Of a stretch of 52,912 nt of DNA, positions 13,242 to 17,403 are shown piece by piece (position 1 is the stretch's first letter; each line of letters opens with the position of its first letter). Source of the stretch: Pseudomonadota bacterium (GTDB lineage: Bacteria; Pseudomonadota; Gammaproteobacteria; Xanthomonadales; Rhodanobacteraceae). The stretch covers positions 1-52,912 of the forward strand of contig JAKAZT010000002.1 of NCBI GenBank assembly GCA_021815695.1, written 5' to 3'. Both the position numbers and the translations under genes were made by a program. The notes below the pieces were generated by a model, which was not told the DNA's origin, ran no database searches, and saw only the letters and a list, made by a program, of their open reading frames with translations.

Positions 13242-13563
13242 CAACAGGACTCCTGAAGCCGCCTCACCACGCGGACGCGATACCGGTTCAGGCAGAAATG
13301 AAGGGGGAGGGCGGGCGCCGACGGCGCTGCCGGGTTTGCTGCGGAAGAAGACTGGATCGACAGCAGGGGCGCAACCGGAGCGCCACGACAAACGCCGCCA
13401 TGATAGCCGAAGCCGGCCGCGGCCGTCGGCCCGGCGTGTCCGCGCTCCGGATCACGCCGTGCTTACCGATCGTTGAGGTGGATCGCGAAGGCGCCTGCGA
13501 CGGGCACAATGACGACTCCGCCCGTGCCGTTCGCGCGGGCGATTCATCCCCGGGAGGACCGTC

Positions 13564-14589
13564 ATGAGATCGCACGCTGCCGCGCTGTCGCGCCATCCAC
13601 TCTTGCTCGTCGCCGTCACACTGGCCCTGGCGGTCAGCGCCGCCGCGAGCGCCGGCACCACGCTGCTGCGGATTCCCGGCGGCGCGCACGGTCTCGGCTT
13701 CGACGACCTCGGCTATGCCCCGGCGCTCGGGCGCGTGCTGGTGCCGGCGGCGCAGAGCGGCGCGCTGGTGCTGGTCGATCCCGCCAATGACGCGCTGCGG
13801 GTGCTGGCGGATGTCGCGCCCGCCGGCCATGCTGTCAGCGGCCACGATGCCGGCACCACCTCGGCCGATTACGGCGAGGGCCTGCTGTTCGCCAGTGACC
13901 ACGAGCGCATGGCGGTGGTGGCGGTCGATCCGCGAACCGGCGCCGTTGTCGCGCGTGCGCAACTCGCGGGCGGCCCCGACTACGTGCGCTACGTGGCGCC
14001 GCTGCATCAGGTGTGGGTCAGCGAGCCGCACCAGAAGCAGATCGAGCGCTTCGCGGTGACCGCGGGCGCGCACCCGGCGCTGACGCGTGTCGGCGCGGTC
14101 AGTGTGCCGGGCGGTCCCGAGTCGCTGGTGATCGACGCCGCGCGTGGACAGGCCTACAGCAACGAGTGGAAGGATCACACGGTCGCGATCGCGCTGAGGA
14201 ATCCCCGCGTCACCGCGCGCTGGGCCAACGGCTGCGAGGGCAGTCGCGGTCTGGCGCTGGATGCCGCCGGCCACACGCTGTTCGTCGGCTGCAAGGAGGG
14301 CAGGGTGGTGGCGCTCGATCTCGATCACGCCGGCAGGATCGAAGCCAGCGCCAAGGTCGGCGCCGGCGTCGACATCATCGCCTGGAACCCGGTGCTGCAT
14401 CACGTGTATGCGCCCGGCGCGGTCAGCGCCACGATGACCGTGCTCGACTTCAAGGACGGTACCCTGAAGCCGGTCGCGACCGTGCCGACGGCGGCGCATG
14501 CGCATTGCGTCGCGACCGACGGCAAGGCAGTGGCCTACGTCTGCGATCCCGGCGCAGGCGCGCTGATCGTCTATCGCGATCATCCCTGA
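13564..14589 (+). CDS. Exported YncE/YVTN-like beta-propeller protein
   Basis: Signal peptide then repeated beta-propeller-like segments (VLVDPANDALRVL, VVAVDPRTGAVV, VFVGCKEGRVVALD). Confidence 0.75.
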   Translation: MRSHAAALSRHPLLLVAVTLALAVSAAASAGTTLLRIPGGAHGLGFDDLGYAPALGRVLVPAAQSGALVLVDPANDALRVLADVAPAGHAVSGHDAGTTSADYGEGLLFASDHERMAVVAVDPRTGAVVARAQLAGGPDYVRYVAPLHQVWVSEPHQKQIERFAVTAGAHPALTRVGAVSVPGGPESLVIDAARGQAYSNEWKDHTVAIALRNPRVTARWANGCEGSRGLALDAAGHTLFVGCKEGRVVALDLDHAGRIEASAKVGAGVDIIAWNPVLHHVYAPGAVSATMTVLDFKDGTLKPVATVPTAAHAHCVATDGKAVAYVCDPGAGALIVYRDHP

Positions 14590-14593
14590 GCGC

Positions 14594-14620
14594 AGATCCT
14601 TCGCGTTGCTCAGGATGACA
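14594..14620. repeat. REP-like element copy 1 (AGATCCTTCGC..GCTCAGGATGACA), direct
   Basis: agatccttcgcgttgctcaggatgaca. Confidence 0.8.
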
Positions 14621-14624
14621 AGAC

Positions 14625-14710
14625 TTCGGGTACGCCAAGGCCTTCGGTACGCCAAGACCTTCGGTACGCCAAGGCCTTCGGTACGCCAAGACCTTCGGTA
14701 CGCCAAGACC
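14625..14710. repeat. Tandem array A: five copies of a 17-bp unit TTCGGTACGCCAAGRCC (first copy 18 bp)
   Basis: ttcgggtacgccaaggcc|ttcggtacgccaagacc|ttcggtacgccaaggcc|ttcggtacgccaagacc|ttcggtacgccaagacc. Confidence 0.95.
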
Positions 14711-14741
14711 TTCCCCGTGGGGGCTCCTTCCACCCTTCTTT

Positions 14742-14772
14742 TGTCATCCTGAGGGCGCAGCCCGAAGGATCT
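14742..14772. repeat. REP-like element copy 2, inverted
   Basis: tgtcatcctgagggcgcagcccgaaggatct, inverted relative to copies 1 and 3. Confidence 0.8.
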
Positions 14773-14789
14773 TCCCGGCGATGCGGCGC

Positions 14790-14822
14790 GGATGCCCGCA
14801 CGGTAGCGGGCGACGGGCATCC
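14790..14822. repeat. 9-bp inverted repeat in the middle of the composite repeat region
   Basis: GGATGCCCG-N15-CGGGCATCC. Confidence 0.8.
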
Positions 14823-14856
14823 TGCTGCATGGCTGTTCCGGGCGGCCTGGCAAGCC

Positions 14857-14883
14857 AGATCCTTCGCTGCGCTCAGGATGACA
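14857..14883. repeat. REP-like element copy 3, direct
   Basis: agatccttcgctgcgctcaggatgaca. Confidence 0.8.
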
Positions 14884-14888
14884 AGGTC

Positions 14889-14973
14889 TTCGGCATGACA
14901 AGGCCTCCGGCATGACGAGGCCTTCGGCATGACGAGGCCTTCGGCATGACAAGACCTACAGCATGATCAAGAC
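14889..14973. repeat. Tandem array B: five copies of a 17-bp unit TTCGGCATGACRAGRCC, homologous to array A
   Basis: ttcggcatgacaaggcc|tccggcatgacgaggcc|ttcggcatgacgaggcc|ttcggcatgacaagacc|tacagcatgatcaagac. Confidence 0.95.
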
Positions 14974-15033
14974 AGTTGCTGAGCGCGCATCCAGCCGCCC
15001 GTGTCGTCGCTGACGACACGGGTGCGCGGGGTC

Positions 15034-17403
<2,370 letters not shown>

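Follow-up and report, generated by a model that had tools for sequence, protein, structure and literature searches.

A mosaic of REP-like hairpin elements and tag-end tandem arrays in the convergent gap beside ppsA of a Rhodanobacteraceae bacterium

How does the gap between two convergent genes come to be filled with palindromes and tandem repeats, and how do these two kinds of repeat relate to each other? The gap in question (14590-15033) lies in a stretch of 52,912 nucleotides, here called the window, which is contig 168 of a 2.18-Mb MAG (188 contigs, 88% complete). Judged by the product of ppsA, which is 83-84% identical to proteins of Dokdonella, Rudaea and other Rhodanobacteraceae, the host is a Rhodanobacteraceae MAG near Dokdonella/Rudaea. 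On one side stands a beta-propeller gene (13564-14589, forward strand), on the other ppsA on the reverse strand, and their stops at 14589 and 15034 agree with the convergent arrangement described in the original prediction. Between them we find three copies of a palindromic element, in a 23-nt and a 27-nt form, and two arrays of a 17-bp unit (Table 1).

Table 1. Repeats and hairpins in the gap between the beta-propeller gene and ppsA (positions in the window).
Feature	Position	Strand	Remarks
REP-like element, 23-nt form with AGAT tail, AGATCCTTCGCGTTGCTCAGGATGACA	14594..14620	+	tag end at 14620
Array A, five clean 17-bp units AAGRCCTTCGGTACGCC and a degenerate end	14620..14713	+	
REP-like element, 27-nt form, inverted, TGTCATCCTGAGGGCGCAGCCCGAAGGATCT on the + strand	14742..14772	-	left half of tags-outside heterodimer
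Dimer spacer, 84 nt	14773..14856		contains 9-bp inverted repeat; shared with dimers on contigs 79, 93 and 132, partly contig 3
REP-like element, 23-nt form, AGATCCTTCGCTGCGCTCAGGATGACA	14857..14883	+	right half of heterodimer
Array B, four 17-bp units AAGRCCTTCGGCATGAC and one degenerate	14883..14967	+	
Conserved flank CAAGACAGTTGCTGAGCGCGCATCC	14968..14992	+	directly 3' of the tag at array-less loci; probably a degenerate inverted element
Hairpin CCCGTGTCGTC-GCT-GACGACACGGG, 11 bp, G+C-rich	14998..15022		adjoins ppsA stop; read by eye; probably the host's own terminator-like hairpin, outside the insert

Most of the layout foreseen for this gap is borne out. No other tandem repeat of the window reaches the TRF scores of the two arrays, with array A at 14619-14713 (period 17, 5.6 copies, score 160) and array B at 14878-14971 (period 17, 5.5 copies, score 130). 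Five units had been counted in each, which is correct for array A with its five clean units of the TTCGGTACGCCAAGRCC type and has to be corrected for array B, where four good units, one of them with TCCGG, are accompanied by the degenerate unit TACAGCATGATCAAGAC. The units of the two arrays differ at positions 6, 8 and 10 as described, and the element, AGATCCTTCGC..GCTCAGGATGACA, directly precedes both of them. The inverted element between the arrays is also present, albeit in the longer 27-nt form, together with the expected 9-bp inverted repeat (GGATGCCCG at 14790-14798 and CGGGCATCC at 14814-14822, read directly from the sequence), and the spurious peptides VILSAAKDL and HPERSEGS both appear in mechanical ORFs over the gap.

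The unit of array B can be spelled from the element. Both arrays start at its TGACA end, and the register is kept across the junction with array B (...GGATGAC/AAGRCCTTCGGCATGAC/AAG...). The B unit CCTTCGGCATGACAAGA corresponds to a prefix plus a suffix of the 27-nt element at 17 of 17 positions, compared to at most 14 for 1500 random 17-mers; read as CCTTCGGC+ATGACAAGA, it equals the 27-nt element CCTTCGGCCTGCGGCCTCAGGATGACA plus AGA and minus 13 internal bases. With arrays in phase with the edge and a unit that amounts to an internally deleted element, the proposal that the arrays iterate the element's own edge is supported. Adjacency of element and array, likewise predicted for other loci, recurs in the host and in two related genomes (G006 and G009): the B-type unit follows the tag in phase in 0-6 copies, and 2-6 copies are found at about 15 places in the three genomes, single-unit calls being mostly noise at the threshold of this census. 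At other element copies the tag runs straight into a downstream flank (AAGACAGTTGCTGAG...) with zero units. Of the two 17-mers, the B-type unit thus recurs in the genome, but the exact A unit was found only at the window locus. Since bridging units between B and A exist (CATGCC, TATGCC), divergence of A from B is simpler than an independent origin, although array A may possibly have arisen by itself, through deletion of internal bases from a 23-nt element (match 15/17). Samples of 198 genomes from the family and 300 from the order, the second with just two members of the genus, contained the 17-mer pattern in this genus only. The variation typical of a minisatellite or VNTR is seen between loci, with 0-6 units per element in three genomes and none at the orthologous site of two relatives. 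Rotational self-complementarity of single 17-mers is not above that of shuffles, and an argument from a palindromic unit was rejected for this reason.

The element itself forms a strongly covarying hairpin, is found throughout the genome and has TGTC as an unpaired tag at one end. A search with the exact pattern CCTTCG-N3..12-CTCAGGATGACA retrieves 77 copies from the 2.18-Mb assembly and 0 in a reversed-pattern control, in line with the prediction of a REP-like element dispersed over the genome. In either form the lower stem has 5 bp and is followed by an invariant 2x2 mismatch; the apical stem above it measures 2 bp in the 23-nt element and 4 bp in the 27-nt element and is mostly closed by a 3-nt loop. 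The lower stem is fully paired in 163 of 172 copies; measured against the commonest stem, 43 copies carry changes in both arms and still pair, none carries unpaired changes in both arms and nine are changed on one side, counts that do not represent independent events because the copies are related. At least four stem types occur (TCC/GGA, CCC/GGG, TTC/GAA and TGC/GCA), and GC and CG swaps are also seen in the apical stem. The tag strand reads TGTC-ATCCT...AGGAT, and TGTC is left unpaired in the predicted folds; the frequency of the tag depends on the search, as the patterns demanded TGAC(A). Loops of 3 nt were counted in 137 of 163 copies, and the tail is CT or CTGG. On the strand starting with TGTC the mismatch is GA/GA (TC/TC on the other), and 95 of the 137 three-base loops conform to GNA. 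Tandem G-A mismatches and GNA loops stabilise DNA hairpins; only the TGTC strand would therefore combine a stabilising mismatch with stabilising loops, a polarity that we infer from the letters and that is not displayed by the folding parameters used.

Among thirteen genomes of the genus including the host, copy numbers are 77, 47, 38, 14, 9, 5, 1 and 1, and five genomes have none. Outside the family the distribution is patchy: a genome from a different family of the order has 33 copies, and of 248 other genomes drawn from the whole phylum 2 contain the element. At G055:C1:235322-235627 and similar places, in a genome likewise belonging to a different family of the order, copies of a 24-nt version follow each other at intervals of 130-140 bp without change of orientation, as though they belonged to a longer tandem unit. 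In G011, 8 of the 14 copies are located inside 31 kb (C2:1408007-1438557). The dimer gave no match in PLSDB, and spread by plasmids was rejected on this basis. In a viral collection the element is found on 19 stretches of contigs and the tags-outside pair on three (L320, L331 and L332), which bear pairs of the 27-base element sequence with 36-39 bases between the partners.

Concerning the enzyme behind this dispersal, the original prediction had envisaged an associated RAYT (TnpA_REP) transposase in the genome. This is not supported: NF047646 and PF01797 both gave 0 matches in the 88%-complete MAG, and a RAYT link was rejected for the host genome. PF01797 counts do not track the element, as transposases are missing from the host, G006 and G012 with 77, 38 and 9 element copies, while G010 has nine and not a single element. 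Inspection of seven Y1 gene regions in other genomes revealed no exact element beside any of them. One Y1 transposase gene of G011 (C2:1691138) is situated about 4.3 kb from an element, the inspected flanks being free of exact elements.

Neighbouring copies are arranged as 37 tags-outside (HH), 31 tags-inside (TT) and 14 same-orientation (HT) pairs. Heterodimers of a 23-nt and a 27-nt element make up 28 of the 37 tags-outside pairs and several of them share spacers, including the dimer of the window (14742-14883; Table 1). In the host (C185:22400-23600), about 150 bp in which inverted arrays of the heptamer type enclose one element have the opposite orientation to their counterpart on C22 of the relative G007, and were either inverted between the arrays or misassembled. 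In G006 (C59:6800-7400), three element+17-mer arrays succeed each other at a spacing of 230-280 bp, which suggests duplication of the whole block.

Several known systems resemble this mosaic. BIMEs are intergenic assemblies of palindromic units of two sizes in alternating orientation with recurring spacer motifs, and all of these traits are present here; unlike in BIMEs, 17-mer minisatellites that stem from the unit and can expand are among the pieces between the units. In the parts of the work on CGTC-tagged REPs considered here (Di Nocera et al., 2013; PMC3733652), these repeats are alike in an unpaired CGTC/TGTC end tag, a stem opening with A-T (A-T, T-A in our main element type), mainly tags-outside dimers, common heterodimers and conserved spacers, and in lying between convergent or same-direction genes with no dedicated transposase known. 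In contrast, their stem is described there as a continuous 8-9 bp helix instead of 5 bp, a 2x2 mismatch (TC/TC) and 2-4 bp, their loop has 4-5 nt instead of mostly 3 nt, their tail is CCA-like instead of CT, and tag-end 17-mer arrays are absent from that portion of the description. Because loop length, stem continuity and tail disagree, we assign no published family; from its sequence, the element looks like a branch of CGTC-like REPs outside the four published families, and appears to be new. REPINs and GTAG REPs with a RAYT are likewise dispersed noncoding pairs of inverted hairpins, but carry a GTAG/GGAG tag, in contrast to the TGTC tag and the host MAG without RAYT/Y1 matches (Nunvar, 2010, PMC2817692; Bertels and Rainey, 2011, PMC3116915). 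The intergenic heptamer repeats of Xanthomonas and Nostoc are the same kind of 7-bp arrays of variable copy number; no general association with mobile elements is reported for them (PMC4692102), whereas the heptamer arrays found here are placed at REP tag ends. In the open-access literature we found no paper with the peptides, with the element as a bacterial repeat or with arrays at REP tag ends, and searches combining REP with minisatellite or BIME with tandem returned known REP papers only. The one-sided association of hairpin and tandem repeat hence seems to be undescribed.

This association is wider than the 17-mer and, in its refined form, includes heptamer and other arrays. We scored arrays of period 5-30 at either end of 137 elements in 357 kb of assembly, comprising all exact-pattern loci and, as background, about 281 kb drawn from contigs C1-C20 and from the window. 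An array lies within 45 nt at 37 of 133 tag ends versus 5 of 132 tail ends (Fisher P 5e-8), and the array units include 17-mers, 16-mers, 12-mers and many heptamers. Elements are clustered and not independent within one genome; counted once per contig by hand, the figures are about 22 versus 2 (P 4e-5). The contrast between the two ends is inflated, as the tail faces the dimer spacer and has less room, which leaves the contrast with the background unaffected (0.9% of random positions and 1.2% of noncoding-proxy positions away from elements). Replication elsewhere is weak: G006 and G009 together give 7 of 52 tag ends versus 1 of 51 tail ends (P 0.06), and the elements of G011 and G055 display no tag-end array contrast. 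Most of the support for this unexpected one-sidedness thus comes from a single genome and those closely related to it.

The composite can be compared with the orthologous site in G006 and G007, where the ppsA protein is 97% and 96% identical to that of the window and gene order is kept. In both relatives the gap is devoid of elements and arrays: the aligned flanks, 91-96% identical around the empty sites, leave 388 bases in the window versus -1 in G006 and 456 versus 52 in G007. With two relatives lacking the insert, gain here is likelier than loss there. Each of the two gaps has, by eye, a G+C-rich inverted repeat of a sequence other than that of the window; since such hairpins occupy the empty sites, the composite stands beside a hairpin that is probably the host's own (Table 1). 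CTGAGCGC marks either end of the insert, has a single copy in the empty site of G007 and may represent a target site duplication, though identical letters also occur inside the element. Further element clusters of the host (on C19, C110, C176 and C150) have no counterpart, or a much shortened one, at the corresponding sites of G007, pointing to a wide turnover of elements after the species split; an apparently clean empty site on C28 was left out, as it may be a deletion in the reference.

Taken together, we consider it roughly two-thirds probable that a mosaic of REPs of the CGTC/TGTC-tagged kind entered the convergent ppsA gap and that minisatellites grew from their tag ends. The REP-like heterodimer would have been dispersed, possibly by a trans-acting HUH enzyme (Y1/RAYT-like) of which none was found in the host, and would then have arrived in this gap. 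There, an element copy may have lost its hairpin core and left a 17-bp seed (CCTTCGGC+ATGACAAGR), which slippage or unequal exchange would have extended by in-phase copies next to the hairpin, a likely pause site of the polymerase. Array A would subsequently have diverged from CATGAC via CATGCC to TATGCC/TACGCC; the steps from core loss to this divergence are inferred from the sequence. In its present form the composite would be a neutral or selfish passenger, at most adding 3'-end structure to both transcripts.

The way in which the arrays reached their sites allows for other accounts. One is that dimer, flanks and short array form a single mobile or recombining cassette, so that the arrays are inherited cargo of a subfamily and were not nucleated at each site. 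In favor of this, flanks past the tag recur between loci (AAGACAGTTGCTGAG; CCCTCCGGTGTCATCC; CCCTTTAGGCTTGTCC; GCCTGCTTTT), and dimers with the CGCGGCGGAGACG spacer bear arrays whose unit is a 7-mer or a multiple of 7, whereas 17-mers accompany the CCCGGCGATGAGG spacer. As array type goes with spacer type, arrays may be copied together with the dimer instead of growing anew; however, within a single subfamily the units change from locus to locus (CCGGCTT, CCGGTAG, TGGGAAG and TCCCGGC, among others) and the number of 17-mers ranges from 0 to 6, which implies much growth or turnover after dispersal, and we regard the cassette as a strong rival, though of fairly low probability. Of similarly low probability is the idea that the tag end is a hot spot making tandem repeats de novo, for example by repeated single-strand nicking or fork pausing. 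That elements insert preferentially beside pre-existing tandem repeats could draw on the independent abundance of intergenic heptamer arrays in Xanthomonas (PMC4692102), but the site of the window has neither element nor array in two relatives, and the element's own letters spell the 17-mer in phase with its end. Such targeting is therefore very unlikely and, for the 17-mers, disfavoured. An artefact of short-read metagenome assembly has next to nothing to recommend it: elements stand at the ends of many contigs in the MAG, in places next to runs of N, but the window gap is free of N, each array is below 100 bp and the element+17-mer junction is also found in two other MAGs (G006, G009).

A different question is whether the composite serves the genes beside it, as a bidirectional terminator, RNA stabiliser or protein-binding array selected at the 3'-ends of ppsA and its neighbour. 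The setting is suggestive, as 9 of 24 element clusters but only 18 of 110 intergenic gaps are convergent (P 0.026), and divergent gaps are possibly under-represented (2 of 24 versus 29 of 110, P 0.065), based on clusters with both neighbours visible and genes from our own simple caller; REPs in general share this preference for convergent gaps according to the parts of PMC3733652 considered. On either strand, the predicted fold of the gap also surpasses that of shuffled sequences (z -3.9 and -4.4). Yet array B folds strongly (z -6.7) whereas array A is no better than shuffles (z +0.5), which argues against a conserved fold shared by the arrays, and a known RNA family was rejected as Rfam gave no match up to E 1 over 13400-15300. 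Moreover, relatives with the same gene order manage without the composite, and a separate 11-bp hairpin remains beside ppsA. A selected local function is possible but unlikely, and a dedicated 3'-end device would be an improbable form of it.

For the annotation of this group, the element accounts for a set of spurious peptides and contig breaks. Beyond this, REPs and tandem repeats are usually catalogued apart, while at this locus one is spelled from the other and at one defined end, offering a possible route for the birth of bacterial minisatellites. If the tag-end bias holds in complete genomes, the start of new tandem repeats would become directly testable, and the bias would point to a strand-specific nick or pause at the tag. 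Should the tag end indeed be a hot spot, REP populations would be nurseries of minisatellites and heptamer arrays.
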